Source: a virus | DNA length: 31,619 bases | Virus record (IMG/VR): IMGVR_UViG_3300034062_006018 | Location: 1 to 31,619 of that record | Strand: one strand, 5' to 3' | Shown here: one piece after another, positions 24,016 to 31,619 of the stretch | Layout: each line of letters opens with the position of its first letter | Position numbering within the stretch: position 1 is the stretch's first letter | The notes under the pieces: generated by a model | What the model was told of the DNA's origin: nothing | Database searches by the model: none | The model's input: the letters and a program-made list of their open reading frames with translations, nothing else | Position numbers and translations under genes: made by a program

Positions 24016-24486
24016 CTACACTGCAACTGCCGTGCCAACGGGCCAGACATATTCAAGATCGTTTGGCTCGCTCCATCCGAACTGGCCGTAGTGCTCCGGA
24101 AGTTTGCGGAGCAGATTGCTTCTGTGCGACGCATGAAAATCCTCGCACCCCAGCCACGGTGGCCTGCCGCAATCGTCGCGCCCTTGCTCGATGATGCACG
24201 CTGCAGCGTAGGAAAACTGATCGCGTAGTGTGTCTCTGTAGCCTCGACGCCGCCACTCAGCGCAGACTGTGATCGCATACAGGCACAGCGAATACTCGTA
24301 CCCTTGCCACATACGGGTCGCAGGGTGATTCCGCCAACTACTTGGCTTATCACGCAGGGGGCCACCGATCGGCACGCCGAGCGCCTGCAAAATCTGCTTG
24401 CACTCGACCCGCTGCTTGCCGAGCCTTCGGTAGTCCAGGCACATTGCAGAGTCGATGAAATTGTCGTAGGGGAGAAAGGTTTGCAT
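24016..24486 (-). CDS. MSMEG_6728-like / pyrimidine-dimer glycosylase-related protein
   Basis: 156 residues. MQTFLPYDNFIDSAMCLD, RRLGKQRVECKQILQAL, WRNHPATRMWQGYEYSLCLY and WRRRGYRDT match a phage and actinobacterial family annotated MSMEG_6728 or related to pyrimidine dimer DNA glycosylase (PF03013). RLGKQRVE is the hallmark. A DNA repair or DNA-modification role is plausible. GAGG lies seven bases before ATG 24486, which overlaps the previous stop by one base. Confidence 0.82.
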   Translation of the reverse strand: MQTFLPYDNFIDSAMCLDYRRLGKQRVECKQILQALGVPIGGPLRDKPSSWRNHPATRMWQGYEYSLCLYAITVCAEWRRRGYRDTLRDQFSYAAACIIEQGRDDCGRPPWLGCEDFHASHRSNLLRKLPEHYGQFGWSEPNDLEYVWPVGTAVAV

Positions 24487-24665
24487 CACCGCGCCTCTTT
24501 TTTGGTTGCGGCTTCAATTTTGTCCATCAGCACTTCGCACGACTCTGCTATTCGAGACTTGCGCTCGCGAAATGGATTGCGAGCCAGTTCCTCGGAATAC
24601 AGCGTCCAGACGGCCCGCCGCAGCGCTTTCAATTCGTGCGACTTGAGTTCAAGAGTCAGTTTCAT
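24486..24665 (-). CDS. Small basic helical protein (59 aa)
   Basis: ATG 24665 follows GGGGAG by seven bases. Starts MKLTLELKSHELKALRRAV and continues with Arg- and Glu-rich helices (FRERKSRIAESCEVLMDK). No domain recognised. It overlaps the previous gene by 17 bases and the next by one. Confidence 0.68.
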   Translation of the reverse strand: MKLTLELKSHELKALRRAVWTLYSEELARNPFRERKSRIAESCEVLMDKIEAATKKEAR

Positions 24666-25763: not shown

Positions 25764-26002
25764 TCTCTTGTCTCCTTTTCTGCGTAGTCCTCCCACAAAA
25801 CTTTCTCGATTTCTTCCCTCGTTCCGGTGTATTCGTTCGTGTAAAGAAGCGTGAAGAACTGACCGTCAGACAACTCGGCCACAACGCCTGGGTCGTAGAC
25901 GATTGCCGCAACGGCGTTTTCGACCTCGAACCCGAAAGCGTTCTCCAGAATCGAAAGATCAGTTTTTCGCTCCGCTGTTTTCACCCACTCTGCGAATGTC
26001 AT
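25760..26002 (-). CDS. Small acidic hypothetical protein (80 aa)
   Basis: ATG 26002 follows AGGAG by nine bases and overlaps the methyltransferase stop (ATGA). The sequence MTFAEWVKTAERKTDL, then FEVENAVAAIVYDP and an acidic tail (REEIEKVLWEDYAEKE) shows no known domain. The acidic charge would suit a DNA mimic, but that is speculation. Confidence 0.7.
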   Translation of the reverse strand: MTFAEWVKTAERKTDLSILENAFGFEVENAVAAIVYDPGVVAELSDGQFFTLLYTNEYTGTREEIEKVLWEDYAEKETRE

Positions 26003-26694
26003 GCCACTTGCTCCTGTTGTTGTTGAATCCACGCTGCAGCCTGCGCCCCAACGTGTGCCGTGTATGCCGGCGGGAAACCCTCTTTCAGTTCATTCCACGA
26101 AATCGGACGATCGACGCCCATCGCAAATCGACCTTCCTCGACTGTTCGTGCCGTCGATCCGCCAATCACTAACTTTCCGGTTTTTTTGCACACGCCTTTG
26201 CAGGTGTCGCCCATCGTGTGATACACGCCGATTGGCTTTCCCTGCTCCAGGTGTTTGCATCCAGACCCAACAAGCGGAAACGACGCCAGGAAGTATCGGT
26301 GCCGGCGAACTTTCAATCCATACGCCGACCCGCACTCAATCACTGCATTTTCCATGCCGGGCGCACCCTGTACGTTTTCGACAACCCACGGCACGCCGCA
26401 GTCGCGGAGTAGTTCGAGCGTCGGCGTCAGCAGGTCGCCGTATTTGCTTTTACCGCCCTGCGCATCCCGCAGGTGCTTCGCTCTCGTGTGTGCTTGGCAC
26501 GGAGGGGACGCATGAATCAGATCGAACTGACGCAGGTAGTCTCTGTCACGCAGAACGTCGAGCGCGCTGCCCTGGTGAAACTCGTATGGGTAGTTTGGCT
26601 GCGGGCGAATGTCCCAGCCAACAACGTCGAATAATGCGCGCCGGTAGCCTTCGCCCGCCATCCCTGCACCGCAATACAAATCGAGGACTCTCAT
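25999..26694 (-). CDS. C5-cytosine DNA methyltransferase-like protein (short form)
   Basis: 231 residues from ATG 26694, with AGGGGA seven bases upstream. Motif I is LDLYCGAGMAGEG (4-15), motif IV has the catalytic Cys in SPPCQ (63-67, C66), motif VI is VVENVQGAP, and motif VIII-like KVRRHRYFLAS follows. It is shorter than typical Dcm (over 300), lacking a clear target-recognition domain, a form common in phages. It may mark phage DNA or act in hypermodification. It is coupled by ATGA to both neighbours. Confidence 0.88.
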   Translation of the reverse strand: MRVLDLYCGAGMAGEGYRRALFDVVGWDIRPQPNYPYEFHQGSALDVLRDRDYLRQFDLIHASPPCQAHTRAKHLRDAQGGKSKYGDLLTPTLELLRDCGVPWVVENVQGAPGMENAVIECGSAYGLKVRRHRYFLASFPLVGSGCKHLEQGKPIGVYHTMGDTCKGVCKKTGKLVIGGSTARTVEEGRFAMGVDRPISWNELKEGFPPAYTAHVGAQAAAWIQQQQEQVA

Positions 26695-27059
26695 ATCTGT
26701 TCCCCTGTAGCCTCGTGGACAGTTCTGCCACTCGTTTTCAGAACTGCAAACTCCATGCCATCGGCCCGACAGCCCCGATAGAGCCAGTGCGGAGCAACTC
26801 GCGGATTGAACTGCACCGGCTCCCCGGCTTGTGTTTCGCACGGACGGGTCAAAACTGAATCGCACTCGATCCACGCACACGGCGTCTTGTTGGCTCCGTT
26901 GTGGATTCGCTTTGCCAGTACGGGTCTATTCACAAGCCGGCAGCCGCGAAGCTCTAGGCTTGCCTCGCGCGGGTCTACATATTCGACTCGCTCGCCGGTT
27001 CGTATCTGCCAGTGGCCGCAGTGCTCACCGGCCCCAAGGTGAAAGCGGACGCGATTCAC
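26691..27059 (-). CDS. Conserved phage hypothetical protein (122 aa)
   Basis: GTG 27059 has GGAGG five bases upstream and overlaps the upstream stop (GTGA). Starts MNRVRFHLGAGEHCGHWQIR, then VEYVDPREASLELRGCRLVN and IHNGANKTPCAWIECDSV. This pattern is familiar from phage genomes; the His/Cys pairs suggest a small metal-binding beta fold. Function unknown. One degenerate copy of the 17-nt repeat falls in it (26833-26850). Confidence 0.78.
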   Translation of the reverse strand: MNRVRFHLGAGEHCGHWQIRTGERVEYVDPREASLELRGCRLVNRPVLAKRIHNGANKTPCAWIECDSVLTRPCETQAGEPVQFNPRVAPHWLYRGCRADGMEFAVLKTSGRTVHEATGEQI

Positions 27060-27493
27060 TGTGGCCTCCGTTCGCCGAAACGATGAAGCATGGAGCGCAA
27101 AAGATCGGCGTCAGTTAGCGCGATTACAACGTCCGCTATGTTCCCCTGGTACATGGGATGCAGTCCGTTTTCCGGATACTTCCACACGAAAGGCACACGG
27201 TTGACCATGAGTCTGACTGTTGCCTCCAGCCTTCCGGCGAGTTCTCGAAAGCACGGCTGGCACTTTCGTAGTTCTGCCTTTGTCACAGGACGGTCGAAGT
27301 CGCGGACAACGGCGCGAAACAGGGCCGCCGCTACGTCGCTGATTTCCGGCATAGCCTCGAAGTAGGCGGCGCAGAACTCTGGCGCAATCTCGAATCGCTC
27401 GGGATAGCGCGACTCGCCGTGGCTCTTGTTGAAAACAAGCCCAATCCTGCGCTCTTCGATTTCGTGCTCGTCGCCGTCGAATATGGCTTTCAT
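27056..27493 (-). CDS. Hypothetical protein (145 aa)
   Basis: Starts MKAIFDGDEHEIEERRIGLV and contains AYFEAMPEISDVAAALFRAV, RKCQPCFRELAGRLEATVRL and LTDADLLRSMLHRFGE. No known domain; CQPC could be a metal pair. GAGG is about ten bases upstream. DRPVTKAEL in the middle is encoded by a degenerate copy of the 17-nt repeat (27279-27295). Confidence 0.72.
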   Translation of the reverse strand: MKAIFDGDEHEIEERRIGLVFNKSHGESRYPERFEIAPEFCAAYFEAMPEISDVAAALFRAVVRDFDRPVTKAELRKCQPCFRELAGRLEATVRLMVNRVPFVWKYPENGLHPMYQGNIADVVIALTDADLLRSMLHRFGERRPQ

Positions 27494-27876
27494 TACTCGT
27501 TGCCCTCGCTCAGTTCCTCAAAAATTGTTTCAGCGTTTTTCGCGTACCAGTCACCTACCTTTTGGTCGATGTAGCAGTAGATGGCCGCCATGCCGTTGTT
27601 GTCTCGCGAGTTTGTGCCGATACCGGCGTTTTCGTATGCCTCCTCCAAATCGGCGGCATGGAGAAACCATGCTGCCTCGATTTGGCTAGTCCAGATCGGA
27701 ACCGCGCCATCCACGATTTCGTGGATGGCTCCCGAGTAGTCCAGATCGTTTCGGAGGCACGGCACCTCGTCGGGCTTGTTCTCTTTGATGTAGGCCCGCA
27801 GTTCTTCCTCGACCTGCTCGATCGCACTATCCACACAGTCGGGCAGAACGTCGTCGATTTCGATTTGTCGTTTCAT
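27493..27876 (-). CDS. First gene of the minus operon, hypothetical (127 aa)
   Basis: ATG 27876 is chosen because GAAGGAG lies 11 bases upstream; a longer open frame to 27930 has no site. The protein is acidic (MKRQIEIDDVLPDCVDSAIE, VEEELRAYIKENKPDE, WYAKNAETIFEELSEG) and contains SQIEAAWFLHAADLEEAYE. No family recognised. It is closest to the iteron-like repeats, so its leader is the likely control point for the operon. Confidence 0.72.
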   Translation of the reverse strand: MKRQIEIDDVLPDCVDSAIEQVEEELRAYIKENKPDEVPCLRNDLDYSGAIHEIVDGAVPIWTSQIEAAWFLHAADLEEAYENAGIGTNSRDNNGMAAIYCYIDQKVGDWYAKNAETIFEELSEGNE

Positions 27877-27943
27877 GGTTTGTTTGCTCCTTCGGGTTAT
27901 GGATTTCACCTGCTGCACAAGTCGTGCCAAACCGAAAAACTTT

Positions 27944-28028
27944 TGGCGGGCGGGTCTTTGTCACGGGCGGGTCTTTGTCACGGGCGGGTCTTTGTCACGG
28001 GCGGGTCTTTGTCACGGGCGGGTCTTAT
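27944..28028. repeat. Five 17-nt tandem direct repeats (iteron-like)
   Basis: Unit TCACGGGCGGGTCTTTG is perfect at 27961-27977, 27978-27994 and 27995-28011. Edge copies at 27944-27960 and 28012-28028 are degenerate. There are no spacers, so it is not CRISPR. It lies upstream of the minus operon. Iterons of an origin, operator sites or a selfish short repeat are all possible. Bases 27877-27943 show no clear promoter. Confidence 0.75.
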
Positions 28029-28036
28029 TTATGGAT

Positions 28037-28104
<68 letters not shown>

Positions 28105-28243
28105 TGCGCGTGCGCCCGCCCGCGTGCGTGTGCGTGCGCCCGTGTGCGTGCGTGCGCCCGTGTGCGTGCGTGCGTGTGCGTGCGCCCGTGTGCGTGCGTG
28201 TGCGTGCGCCCGTGTGCGTGCGTGTGTGTGTGTGTGTGTGTGT
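28105..28243. repeat. Alternating purine-pyrimidine (GT/GC) tract
   Basis: GTGCGTGTGCGTGCGCCC-type units run to 28223 and end in an uninterrupted TG run (about 28222-28243). Such tracts can adopt Z-DNA. No gene is seen here or in the GC-rich stretch 28244-28347. Confidence 0.75.
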
Positions 28244-28347
28244 GCGGGCCGCCTGCGTGCCCCCAGGCGGCCGCCCGTTCCGTAAAGGGCCGGGGAGCCG
28301 GCCGCCCCCGCCATCGGCCGCCAGGCGGCCCGCCAGGTGGTCTAAAG

Positions 28348-28377
28348 TTGACAGGCCGGCCGGCCGATGAGTAGGCT
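28348..28377 (+). promoter_or_regulatory. Promoter for the right-hand segment
   Basis: TTGACA (28348-28353), 18-base spacer, TAGGCT (28372-28377), followed by ACAAT at 28388-28392. The combination matches the promoter at 13040, including AGGCTAC to ACAAT spacing of 15. Confidence 0.55.
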
Positions 28378-28420
28378 ACCGGGCCGCACAATGCCGCCCG
28401 CCACTCCAGGAGCCCTCCCG

Positions 28421-28633
28421 ATGATTCGCGACTTGTTCCGCGCCGCCCTCGCGGCGATCGTGCTCTGGCCCGCCGCGCCGTCCAGGCCGGCGGCCCCGCC
28501 CGTGCCGGCCCCGGCCCCCGTCATGCTGCCCGTGGCGGCCCCGTGGCCCGCCCAGCCGCCCCCGCCCGGCCCCGTGGCCCGCATCATCGGGGCGGCCGAT
28601 CGGGTCGCGGCCCGATGGCTCCCCCCACTGTAG
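28421..28633 (+). CDS. Small proline/alanine-rich protein with hydrophobic N-terminus (70 aa)
   Basis: ATG 28421 has AGGAG ten bases upstream; ATG 28391 in the same frame is an alternative near the promoter start. The N-terminus MIRDLFRAALAAIVLWPA is a short signal or anchor, followed by a Pro/Ala-rich stretch (about 18-52) and RIIGAADRVAARWLPPL. It may be a membrane-tethered linker peptide. The high GC content makes open frames common here, so coding is moderately supported, helped by the promoter. Confidence 0.5.
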   Translation: MIRDLFRAALAAIVLWPAAPSRPAAPPVPAPAPVMLPVAAPWPAQPPPPGPVARIIGAADRVAARWLPPL

Positions 28634-28656
28634 GGGAAAAATCGAGGCCGTTTTTT
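28622..28656 (+). terminator. Weak terminator after the proline-rich gene
   Basis: CCCC ... GGGG flanks the stop region (about 28622-28636), then AAAAATCGAGGCCGTTTTTT gives a second small stem and a six-T run (28651-28656). Plausible intrinsic terminator, short stems. Confidence 0.4.
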
Positions 28657-28659
28657 CAA

Positions 28660-28685
28660 TTCGCCCAAGTGTCCAGTGGGGCGAA
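28660..28685. promoter_or_regulatory. 7-bp inverted repeat upstream of the cassette promoter
   Basis: TTCGCCC (28660-28666) faces GGGCGAA (28679-28685) with a 12-base gap. It lies 44 bases before the -35 of the promoter at 28730, so it could be an operator. Confidence 0.35.
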
Positions 28686-28729
28686 AAACTACTGGCGCGG
28701 CCGTGAAACAGCAAAAACGGAAAAAACGC

Positions 28730-28759
28730 TTGACAGGACTTGACCGGCTAGCGTAGAAT
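28730..28759 (+). promoter_or_regulatory. Strong sigma-70-like promoter of the AAA-VWA cassette
   Basis: TTGACA (28730-28735), 18-base spacer, TAGAAT (28754-28759). The leader (about 28766-28836) holds GGCGAC/GTCGCC-type palindromes before the first ATG at 28837. A near copy of its -35 and spacer lies at 31272-31292 without the -10. Confidence 0.65.
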
Positions 28760-28836
28760 GGTGGTGAAGCGAGGGGCGACCGGCGGCAACGTGTCGCCGG
28801 CCCCCCGCCGGAATAGGCGACCGGGAGACAAAAACG

Positions 28837-29004
28837 ATGGAATACGACCCTTTCTCGTGGATTCTCGACGAAATCGACGACCCCGCCGGCATGAGTGATG
28901 CCGATTTCGACGCGGCTATCGTGGCCCGCCTCGAAGCGCTCGATGAGTGCATGGCCGGAGTGTACGCCGATATGGAAGCGCTGGAGCGATTGGTCGGCGA
29001 ATAG
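28837..29004 (+). CDS. Small acidic protein (55 aa), first gene of AAA-VWA cassette
   Basis: ATG 28837 has GGGAG ten bases upstream. The protein is strongly acidic: MEYDPFSWILDEIDDPAGM, then SDADFDAAIVARLEALDE and a helical end ADMEALERLVGE. No family recognised. It stands first behind a good promoter and ahead of a MoxR-like ATPase. GAATAGGCGACCG is present both just before the gene (28811-28823) and at its stop (28999-29011), as if an upstream copy had been lost. Confidence 0.68.
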   Translation: MEYDPFSWILDEIDDPAGMSDADFDAAIVARLEALDECMAGVYADMEALERLVGE

Positions 29005-29021
29005 GCGACCGTAGGACATAA

Positions 29022-29065
29022 CCCGCCGGCCGTGTTTCGGGGCGATCGCCCCGGCGGCCGGCGGG
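29022..29065. other. Nested perfect palindromes (large hairpin) in the intergenic region
   Basis: Outer arms CCCGCCGGCC (29022-29031) and GGCCGGCGGG (29056-29065) enclose a 14-bp perfect palindrome GGGGCGATCGCCCC (29039-29052). No T-run follows, so an attenuator, mRNA-stability element or protein site is more likely than a terminator. Confidence 0.65.
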
Positions 29066-29102
29066 GGGACAGGTGACGATTGACAACGGGAGACGATGAA
29101 TC

Positions 29103-29780
29103 ATGGCTAAGGTAGACTCTTGGAAAGTGGCTGAGGCGGTGGTCGGCTGCGGCACGGGCAATACGCTGCTCTACGGCCCGCCCGGCACCGGGAAATCCTA
29201 TGCGGCCCAGGGCGGGGCGGCCGACGTGTTCAACGTGACGCTCACGCCGGAGACGCCGGCGGCCGAATTGCGGGGGCATTACCACCCCCGCGGCGGTGAA
29301 TTCGTCTGGCAGGATGGCCCCGTCGTGATGGCGCTTCGTCGCGGTGCTCGAATCGTGCTCAACGAAATCGACCACGCCGGCGGCGATACGCTGTCGTTCC
29401 TCTTGGCGGCGCTCGACAACCCGGAATCGTGCCGGATCACGCTCCCGTCCGGGGAGACGGTGCGGCCCGCCCCCGGGTTCCATTGTGTCGCGACGATGAA
29501 TGGCCGGCCGGAGGACTTGCTCCCGGCGCTCCGCGATCGGTTCGCGGCGGCGGTTGAAATCACTGACGTTCACCCGTCAGCCATCGAGGCGCTGTCGGAT
29601 GATCTGCGGAACGCGGCCCGTGGCACCGTGAACGCCGGGGAAAGCGATCGCGTTACCCTGCGTTCGTGGCTGGCGTTTGATCGGCTGCGGCCGATGATCG
29701 GGCCAGAGTTGGCGGCCCAGGCGGTTTTCGGCGTCGACTGGCGGGCTACGCTCGACAGTCTGACCGTGGCGGCCGAATAG
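29103..29780 (+). CDS. MoxR/CobS-like AAA ATPase
   Basis: 225 residues. Walker A is GPPGTGKS (25-32), Walker B is RIVLNEID (83-90, with N87-E88, a variant of DE seen in some AAA_5 members), sensor 1 is N133 in CVATMNGRPEDLL, and arginines R144 and R146 follow in ALRDRF. The C-terminal lid region is short. MoxR ATPases remodel partner proteins, usually together with a VWA protein, which follows here. GGGAG is ten bases upstream. It is shorter than typical MoxR (over 300). Confidence 0.87.
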   Translation: MAKVDSWKVAEAVVGCGTGNTLLYGPPGTGKSYAAQGGAADVFNVTLTPETPAAELRGHYHPRGGEFVWQDGPVVMALRRGARIVLNEIDHAGGDTLSFLLAALDNPESCRITLPSGETVRPAPGFHCVATMNGRPEDLLPALRDRFAAAVEITDVHPSAIEALSDDLRNAARGTVNAGESDRVTLRSWLAFDRLRPMIGPELAAQAVFGVDWRATLDSLTVAAE

Positions 29781-29796
29781 GCTCCCGTTGCCAGTG

Positions 29797-29825
29797 GCCC
29801 CGGCCGGCGCGTTGCCGGCCGGGGC
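29797..29825. other. Perfect 12-bp hairpin between AAA and VWA genes
   Basis: GCCCCGGCCGGC (29797-29808) and GCCGGCCGGGGC (29814-29825) with a GCGTT loop. It is not followed by T residues, so it may be an attenuator or mRNA processing/stability element that adjusts the AAA to VWA ratio. Confidence 0.7.
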
Positions 29826-29860
29826 GGATCGGATCGACACACTTTCCGGAGGATTGAATC

Positions 29861-31111
29861 ATGCCAGTTCAAGATAGAAACCGCCCCGTTCCGGCGGCAA
29901 TCGACGGGCGAACGTGGACGGTGCGAGAAAGCGCCAACGGTGGCGGCGCGTGCGACACGAAAAAGGCGGATATGTTCGCCCCGTTGGGCGGATCGCCCAC
30001 GGCTCGAATGATTCGTAATCACGAGTTGATCCACGCCCGCATCACGCCCCGGGTGAACGCCGGCGCTGAGGCGACGAAGGCCGGTTTGACCGTCGAGGCG
30101 CTGCAGTGGTCGGAAGATTACCGGGTCGGACTGATTCAAGCGCGTCGCGGCCTTGTCGACCGCGACGCGCTGTCGCCCGTCGAGTGTCAACTGATGGCTG
30201 GCAACGTGGCGCATGATCGCCGGCTCGTTGCCGGCTCGTTGCTGTCGCTGCTCCCGTTGCATGATCAACGGGAGCGGATGGAAGCCGCGCTCGTGGCGGC
30301 CGGTTGGGATTCGGGCGACCTCGCCGATATCCGATCGACGCTCCACGAGATAACCGACATGGCATACGCTCCGTTCCGCGATCGGCGGAGGGCGTCGATG
30401 AAGCGGAAGCCTACCGGGTTCCGCAAAATCACCGTGCCGTTGGCATCGTACTTCGATCACGAGTTCCCCGTAGCGCCGCCCCCGTCGAAAGCCGGGGACG
30501 GCAAGGCCGATCCAAAGATCGTCGAGAAACTCGACGCAATTCGAGGCATCGGCAAGTGGGGGAAACTCACTGACGTTCACCGGCTGAAACTCACTCGCGC
30601 TGTCAAGCCGCGCCGCCCGTTGGGGCGACGGTTTGCCGATACCGGCGTGATACCGTCAGCCGTTCACCGGCTGCCCGTCGACGGCGCTATCTTCACGACG
30701 AAGCGCCGGCAGCGGGGCGGGTCGATCCTGTGCGACAATTCCGGCTCGATGTCATACGATGATTCGGACATAGAGCGCATCATCCGGAATGCGCCGGCCG
30801 CCATGATTGCGTTTTATGCCGGCGGCCGCCGGGGCGGGAAGCCTATGGGGCGGATCGTGATCGCGGCCGATCGTGGCCGGGCTGCGACTGTCGACGAAGT
30901 AGAGCGCGCCATGCCGGGCGGGGAGAATTACGTTGACGGGCCGGCGCTGCGCTGGCTGGCGCGGCAACCCGCCCCGCGCTACTGGGTGAGCGATGAGGGC
31001 GTCGGCGGTGTGAGCGATTTCGGCGTCGGCGGGCCTTGCTGGCACGAGTGCCGCGCAATCTGCAGGGCTGCGAATATCACAATCGTCCCCTCGATCGACG
31101 CGATTCGATAG
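29861..31111 (+). CDS. VWA-domain protein (CobT/CoxE-like)
   Basis: 416 residues, CGGAGGAT about eight bases upstream. The C-terminal VWA domain has a full MIDAS: DNSGSM (292-297), with later elements GRIVIAADRG, GGENYVDGPAL and YWVSDEGVGG. The N-terminal two thirds is helical and basic, with NHELIHARITPRVNAGAEA, resembling the metallopeptidase-like/CobT part of chelatase partners but not clearly identified. With the AAA gene it should form a MoxR-VWA pair that acts on another protein or cofactor. Confidence 0.85.
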   Translation: MPVQDRNRPVPAAIDGRTWTVRESANGGGACDTKKADMFAPLGGSPTARMIRNHELIHARITPRVNAGAEATKAGLTVEALQWSEDYRVGLIQARRGLVDRDALSPVECQLMAGNVAHDRRLVAGSLLSLLPLHDQRERMEAALVAAGWDSGDLADIRSTLHEITDMAYAPFRDRRRASMKRKPTGFRKITVPLASYFDHEFPVAPPPSKAGDGKADPKIVEKLDAIRGIGKWGKLTDVHRLKLTRAVKPRRPLGRRFADTGVIPSAVHRLPVDGAIFTTKRRQRGGSILCDNSGSMSYDDSDIERIIRNAPAAMIAFYAGGRRGGKPMGRIVIAADRGRAATVDEVERAMPGGENYVDGPALRWLARQPAPRYWVSDEGVGGVSDFGVGGPCWHECRAICRAANITIVPSIDAIR

Positions 31112-31128
31112 TGGCCGGGTGAGTGTGG

Positions 31129-31166
31129 CCGGCCGGCGCTCAATTCGAGCGCCGGCCGGTTTTTTT
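31129..31166 (+). terminator. Strong rho-independent terminator of the AAA-VWA cassette
   Basis: A perfect 13-bp stem, CCGGCCGGCGCTC (31129-31141) and GAGCGCCGGCCGG (31147-31159), with a 5-base loop and a seven-T run (31160-31166). It closes the cassette. The stretch 31167-31297 shows no gene. Confidence 0.93.
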
Positions 31167-31271
31167 GTGCGCCGAGCCGAAATCGACGCAATAGGATTGC
31201 GCCTCCCGGCCGATCGCCGGGGCGGCCGACCCTCGATACCCCCGGTTTGACGCCCCGGCCGCCGGCCTCGA

Positions 31272-31292
31272 GACAGGCCTTGACCGGCTCGC
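31272..31292 (+). repeat. 21-bp near-perfect copy of the cassette promoter region
   Basis: GACAGGCCTTGACCGGCTCG (31272-31291) matches 28732-28752 with only two mismatches over 21 bases. The two copies bracket the small acidic gene, AAA and VWA genes and their terminator. Confidence 0.6.
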
Positions 31293-31297
31293 ATGGC

Positions 31298-31541
31298 CGA
31301 TCGCCCAGGTGCGCCGGCCTCGATCGCCCAGGTGCGCCGGCCTCGATCGCCCAGGTGCGCCGGCCTCGATCGCCCAGGTGCGCCGGCCTCGATCGCCCAG
31401 GTGCGCCCAGGTGCGCCCAGGTGCGCCGGCCTCGATCGCCCAGGTGCGCCGGCCTCGATCGCCCAGGTGCGCCCAGGTGCGCCCAGGTGCGCCCAGGTGC
31501 GCCCAGGTGCGCCGGCCTCGATCGCCCAGGTGCGCCGGCCT
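31298..31541. repeat. Compound tandem repeat of 23-nt (A) and 10-nt (B) units
   Basis: Unit A (GCGCCGGCCTCGATCGCCC plus AGGT, 23 nt) and unit B (GCGCCCAGGT, 10 nt, a shortened A) are arranged: partial A, A x4, B x2, A x2, B x4, A, partial A. Copies are identical to sight. There are no spacers. Coding is unlikely since 23 and 10 shift the frame. Confidence 0.9.
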
Positions 31542-31561
31542 CCCCGCGTGCAGGATGGCGG

Positions 31562-31603
31562 GGAAAATTTGCGGGCGGGGAGGGGGGGGCGGGCAATTTT
31601 TCC
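31562..31603. other. G-quadruplex-like G-tracts inside an AT-rich inverted repeat
   Basis: G-tracts at 31573-31575, 31577-31580, 31582-31589 and 31591-31593 are one base apart. They are flanked by GGAAAATTTGC (31562-31572) and GCAATTTTTCC (31593-31603), complementary but for one mismatch. It lies at the end of the window. Confidence 0.5.
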
Positions 31604-31619
31604 GGCGGCCCCGGCAGAC

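Follow-up and report, generated by a model that had tools for sequence, protein, structure and literature searches.

The closest described counterparts of the locus analysed here are viral pairs of a MoxR AAA+ ATPase and a vWA protein. In group 2.2 jumbo phages, MoxR is paired with a vWA fused to a metallopeptidase domain (Iyer et al., 2021, PMC7824862). The Acidianus two-tailed virus also encodes a MoxR-vWA pair (cited in PMC7824862 and PMC7159879), and T4-like cyanophages carry CobS next to a 'peptidase', a couple regarded as a viral CobST. In cells, the MoxR plus VWA working principle is found in NorQ/NorD, CbbQ/CbbO and RavA/ViaA, and a MoxR-vWA core is part of the MoxR-vWA ternary conflict systems (Kaur et al., 2020, PMC7159879). 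Phage MoxR-VWA pairs had been called poorly understood in the original prediction for this DNA, and that description holds.

The source of the locus is a 31.6-kb record of an uncultivated bacterial virus (31,619 nt, referred to as the window). By its protein motifs, the pair in the window can be assigned to a type already described, the phage MoxR plus metallopeptidase-vWA pair. Likened by description to the jumbo-phage pair, it places a MoxR AAA+ protein beside a vWA protein with an N-terminal metallopeptidase. It differs in belonging to a phage lineage of ~59 kb, in its single-domain AAA protein of 225 aa with a Walker-B Asn, and in the promoter of its own, the repeats on either side and the two additional small genes that are conserved. 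The Acidianus pair, also likened by description, is a viral MoxR-vWA chaperone couple, but it is without a peptidase domain and belongs to an archaeal virus. In the cyanophage pair, part of the AAA protein shows 31-36% similarity, and HExxH...EDxR and MIDAS motifs and a profile match over the zincin motif are also shared. Its gene order is reversed, however (peptidase first in those checked), its proteins are larger, and no equivalent of the acidic gene was identified. The ternary conflict systems have the same MoxR-vWA core, but no third component was seen here and the bpMoxR Pfam score of the window AAA (25.9) is under the cut-off of 27. What is new is a compact clade with two small conserved partners, a Walker-B Asn and repeat borders.

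Organization of the Operon

A self-contained MoxR-VWA unit had been predicted, made of a promoter, three genes (acidic, AAA+ and VWA), hairpins between the genes and a strong terminator. All of these parts were recovered, including the three ORFs at their coordinates, and the unit sits in a phage with its own promoter and terminator. The features are as follows (positions in the window, strand, description).

27947-28026, no strand: 17-bp direct repeats, 4.7 copies, CGGGCGGGTCTTTGTCA, iteron-like
28037-28246, no strand: GC-rich tandem array of low complexity that borders the unit on the left, with counterpart arrays in relatives
28421-28633, +: 70-aa Pro/Ala-rich protein, with a homologous ORF in all eight genomes that have the acidic gene
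28665-28674, +: putative AAGTGTCC-type conserved element upstream of the promoter
28730-28759, +: sigma70-like promoter TTGACA-18-TAGAAT; its spacer has a CTTGACCG motif, unchanged in eight relatives
28837-29004, +: acidic 55-aa protein that ends in LERLVGE, or in LxRAIGE in several relatives
29022-29065, +: bulged hairpin in the acidic-AAA gap, pairing kept while the sequence varies
29103-29780, +: AAA+ ATPase, MoxR/CobS-like, 225 aa, PF07728 (AAA_5) E=4e-21
29175-29198, +: Walker A GPPGTGKS of the AAA+ ATPase
29361-29366, +: Walker B NE (not DE) of the AAA+ ATPase
29797-29825, +: 12-bp perfect hairpin in the AAA-VWA gap, conserved as a structure
29861-31111, +: metallopeptidase-VWA protein, 416 aa, phrog_33218 E=7e-16
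30020-30034, +: HExxH, N-terminal in the VWA protein
30113-30124, +: EDxR of the VWA protein
30734-30748, +: MIDAS DxSxS of the VWA protein
30992-30994, +: third MIDAS Asp of the VWA protein
31127-31168, +: intrinsic terminator, 15-bp stem and T7
31298-31542, no strand: 23/66-bp tandem array that borders the unit on the right
31580-31619, +: G-rich conserved block with GGCAGAC at its end; terS follows ~100 bp later in relative G001

The promoter has 11/12 matches, and shuffled sequence yields 0.5 sites per region. The stem of the terminator spans 31127-31161 and is joined to the T7 tract. The AAGTGTCC-type element occurs in one copy per genome in the window, G001, G003 and G004. The trio itself has to be corrected: a further small gene, also conserved, is the fourth of the unit and encodes the Pro/Ala-rich protein. 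This gene lies immediately upstream of the promoter, outside the coordinates first considered, and had not been listed.

Both intergenic hairpins were stronger than all 200 of their dinucleotide shuffles (z of -3.5 and -3.6), and both recur in relatives with a different sequence and the pairing kept. For the acidic-AAA hairpin, a structure-guided comparison of eight genomes found more than one pair type at 3/5 inner-stem positions and at the first seven outer-stem positions. A MAFFT-based consensus fold of the same gap gave poor structure because the stems misalign; pairing was shown by the structure-guided comparison. A search of 27900-31619 against Rfam returned just two sub-threshold matches, both taken as chance, and none at the hairpin at 29022-29065.

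The AAA+ ATPase and Its Metallopeptidase-VWA Partner

The AAA+ protein is of the MoxR/AAA_5 type, with Walker A GPPGTGK[ST], a sensor-1 N and DRF. In the PDB it matched chains of NorQ (E=2e-13) and CbbQ (E=5e-6). The Walker B Asp is replaced by Asn in 116 of 119 non-identical AAA family sequences, whereas more distant phage AAA proteins have Asp wherever the motif is readable.

A zincin-type motif, HExxH...EDxR, at the N-terminus of the VWA protein had been missed, and with it the 'MoxR-VWA' pair becomes a 'MoxR plus metallopeptidase-VWA' pair. HExxH and EDxR are invariant in the eight clade-A-type VWA proteins (the window's own clade) and mostly kept across the 30 aligned sequences, in all of which the MIDAS residues D292, S294, S296 and D378 are invariant. 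When the window VWA family was compared by hhalign with the cyanophage 'peptidase', the match (E=1.2e-6, 73 columns) fell exactly over the zincin motif. The predicted structure of the VWA protein (mean pLDDT 83.9) matches viral VWA proteins, including one labelled 'cobalamin biosynthesis protein'. The Pfam search gave no hit for the VWA protein, and the PDB search matched it to no solved structure; with zero hits in both, a reading as an ordinary VWA protein by Pfam or PDB was dropped.

Two types of VWA protein were distinguished. The N-terminal HExxH is present in clade A and the marine clade C; in clade B the N-terminus is longer and lacks it. The motif that follows HExxH is EDxR in clade A and EExR in most of clade C. 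In four of the 30 aligned sequences (L109, L137, L158 and L171, all clade C), the catalytic Glu of HExxH is Gln and a zinc ligand is also lost. Because of these losses, and because clade B has another N-terminus, proteolysis would not always be needed. A CxxCGxNH motif, possibly metal-binding, lies directly before HExxH in L107, L116, L144, L148 and other clade-C VWA proteins; the window clade does not have it.

Distribution and Genomic Neighborhoods

Highly similar AAA and/or VWA proteins occur in 11 viral records, the window included, which make up clade A, and likewise in one contig of a Pirellulales MAG (L014). Besides clade A, AAA was found directly upstream of VWA in 121 further non-identical viral loci of marine type. 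The two genes usually overlap, often by a few bases, or lie within about 90 bp of each other. In cellular genomes, a scan of 84,980 gave one match, and the order of that MAG gave one among 397 genomes. With more than 120 distinct viral loci carrying it, the pair is thus widespread in viruses and nearly absent from bacterial genomes. A tblastn search of 50,697 records with three queries found no named phage with the window VWA.

The pairing of AAA with an HExxH-VWA protein also occurs in cyanophages, Pelagibacter phage HTVC008M, and Gordonia, Brevibacterium and actinomycete phages. The motifs of the cyanophage 'peptidase' beside CobS follow in the same order (HEVGH, EDARIE, DWSGSM), and no such peptidase was found on plasmids. 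Genes of DNA metabolism are frequent neighbors. An SbcD-like exonuclease lies downstream of the pair in 64/66 clade-B loci and 41/55 clade-C loci, and a Rad52-like annealase lies near it in clade C. The loci of clade B, and likewise those of clade C, are syntenic groups of related viruses, so the nuclease linkage represents few independent events. In cyanophage P-RSM6, gp47/gp46 precede the pair and clamp/clamp-loader genes follow; in S-ShM2, gp46 lies about 3.6 kb before the pair and clamp genes follow. Clamp genes are also near the pair in HTVC008M, and in actinobacteriophages dNMP kinase, ThyX, MazG or dUTPase are close to it.

The gene content of the window is that of phage DNA metabolism (exonuclease, dNMP kinase, helicases, Prim-Pol and methyltransferases). 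The window represents part of a larger tailed-phage genome, and its setting is not a defence island. Relative G001 (58.9 kb) shows synteny with all of the window and has, beyond the window content, genes for neck proteins, the major capsid protein, the head protease and the portal, as well as terS and terL. Both G001 ends fall within one and the same tandem array; it therefore looks like a near-complete genome, assembled as a circle and then cut in that array. In G001 and G004, terS lies just downstream of the unit. When the G001 TerL was searched, terminases 43-44% identical were found in planctomycete genomes, a distance too great for naming a host.

Several other genes of the window stand out. 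A DNA methyltransferase ORF (25999-26880) has 98% amino-acid identity to G001; since most shared genes have 50-89%, a recent exchange is possible. A pyrimidine-dimer DNA glycosylase gene (24016-24489, minus strand; PF03013 E=4e-20) has 94% and 81% identity in two relatives. The product of the ORF at 27493-27930 (minus strand) weakly matches the ocr family of DNA-mimic anti-restriction proteins (PHROG E=3e-4; under the Pfam cut-off).

Possible Functions of the Pair

The operon of AAA+ and metallopeptidase-VWA genes probably encodes a phage ATP-driven protein-remodelling machine. In this mechanism, the AAA+ protein would form a ring, and the VWA domain would dock through its MIDAS site onto a chosen target and onto the ring. 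ATP hydrolysis would then remodel the target, and the HExxH domain would cleave it where its active site is intact. Such remodelling of a specific complex by a chaperone/peptidase would take place during lytic growth. More tentatively, the target may be a phage or host DNA replication/recombination complex, since the pair sits among such genes in several lineages.

A role in virion assembly has been proposed for the jumbo-phage pair of the same architecture (PMC7824862) and is the less likely reading here, if one to be taken seriously. In clade A, the unit is just upstream of the terS-terL-portal and head-protease genes, in the same direction and not adjoining recombination genes, a position that a packaging or virion role fits equally well. 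Against it stand the unit's own promoter and terminator and the neighborhoods in cyanophages, actinobacteriophages and clades B and C, where the pair is found among genes of DNA/nucleotide metabolism and not structural genes. A DNA-metabolism target is favored on this evidence, not decisively. A chelatase function would make AAA and VWA the cobaltochelatase subunits of a viral CobST, acting with host CobN and raising B12 for nucleotide synthesis. This function was suggested for archaeal tailed viruses (PMC8651126). Viral homologues carry CobS/CobT annotations, and the window AAA matches phrog_249 'porphyrin biosynthesis'. In a search of 28 viral records, the near-complete genome among them, CobN (PF02514) was found in none, nor was the ribonucleotide reductase large chain (PF02867), although the controls for both were detected; CobN may still come from the host. 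NCBIfam gave no match for the window AAA or VWA and Pfam no CobT match, even cyanophage CobS scores 69.8 vs. an NCBIfam cut-off of 558.6, and a chelatase would leave the HExxH unexplained. Cobalamin synthesis by the pair is not supported, and this reading is very unlikely. The pair had been described as chaperone- or chelatase-like; the first term stands by family, and the second does not in the sense of cobalamin synthesis.

A defence version of the pair had also been raised. The distribution of the pair is restricted to viruses and there is no PADLOC match above noise, the sole hit being TRIP13 (E=0.009, 27 residues). The defence reading was dropped on the PADLOC and genome scans. The converse would be an anti-host or counter-defence module: early in infection the pair would inactivate a host protein, aided by the acidic protein as an adaptor or a partner resembling a DNA mimic. 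Such a module would fit a separate promoter-driven unit that contains a small acidic protein and lies beside divergently transcribed genes, including the one with the ocr-like match. Typical host-takeover genes are patchy, however, whereas the pair has been retained in many phage lineages and hosts; it also has no relation to PADLOC families, and such a module is most improbable. The protein-remodelling machine would also have consequences for annotation. In hundreds of phage records, mostly cyanophages that also have the 'peptidase', the CobS-like AAA is annotated as cobalamin or porphyrin biosynthesis. The present analysis argues that these pairs may instead form a machine for protein remodelling and metallopeptidase action that is associated with genes of DNA metabolism. 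The window clade offers the pair in compact form (225 + 416 aa), perhaps with a small regulatory partner, which would suit biochemical work.

The Small Genes

The acidic protein has a pI of 4.05 and a charge of about -15. It had been expected to be conserved with the pair. This was the case in 8/9 clade-A viral records with upstream sequence (the window, L002, L003, L004, L005, L006, L021 and L024), but neither L007 nor the Pirellulales MAG contig has the ORF. In the marine clades, the genes upstream of the pair encode proteins different from the acidic one. The acidic gene is thus an accessory part of the unit, not universal with the pair in the loci compared. In two close pairs of relatives, its pN/pS was 0.25 and 0.36, vs. 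0.08 and 0.12 for the AAA gene; judged by these ratios, the ORF is a real coding gene under purifying selection that evolves faster than the AAA gene.

The AF2 model of the acidic protein is mostly one long helix (mean pLDDT 80.8). Its C-terminus is conserved. With regard to Pup/UBact-like conjugated tags, which are small, acidic and disordered and have a C-terminal Gly-Glu/Gln, the end is GE in 7/8 proteins and GR in L003, and the model is helical. The acidic protein, put forward earlier as a possible substrate or inhibitor, may act as an accessory co-factor (substrate, adaptor or regulator) in the window's own clade only. A far more speculative proposal, to which little probability is given, is that the AAA+/metallopeptidase machine would recognize the conserved C-terminus LxRAIGE of this protein, which would serve in trans as a degradation tag or adaptor. 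These phages would then encode an ATP-dependent protease of their own under adaptor control. The Pro/Ala-rich protein has a hydrophobic N-terminus, a proline spacer and a conserved C-terminal segment.

Flanking Repeats and a Candidate Genome End

The operon is flanked by tandem arrays of differing unit in the window, G001, G003, G004, L003, L006, L007, L021 and L024. At the left border, an array is present in the clade-A relatives with sequence there, and its unit sequence differs. In G001, arrays at the detection threshold occur only around the unit or inside the Pro/Ala-rich gene. The 17-bp repeats (GTCTTTG... type) lie beside a divergently transcribed gene and are iteron- or operator-like; the same period with a related unit is found in G001, L006, L021 and L024. 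The operon is absent from two 56-kb relatives (G430 and G431), probably an assembly effect, because contigs break at tandem arrays.

The contigs of the window and L006 end at the exact same base of a conserved motif, CGGCAGAC|CGCAYGC. This motif lies just upstream of terS and is spanned in other relatives. The conserved block at 31580-31619 is a candidate cos or packaging end.
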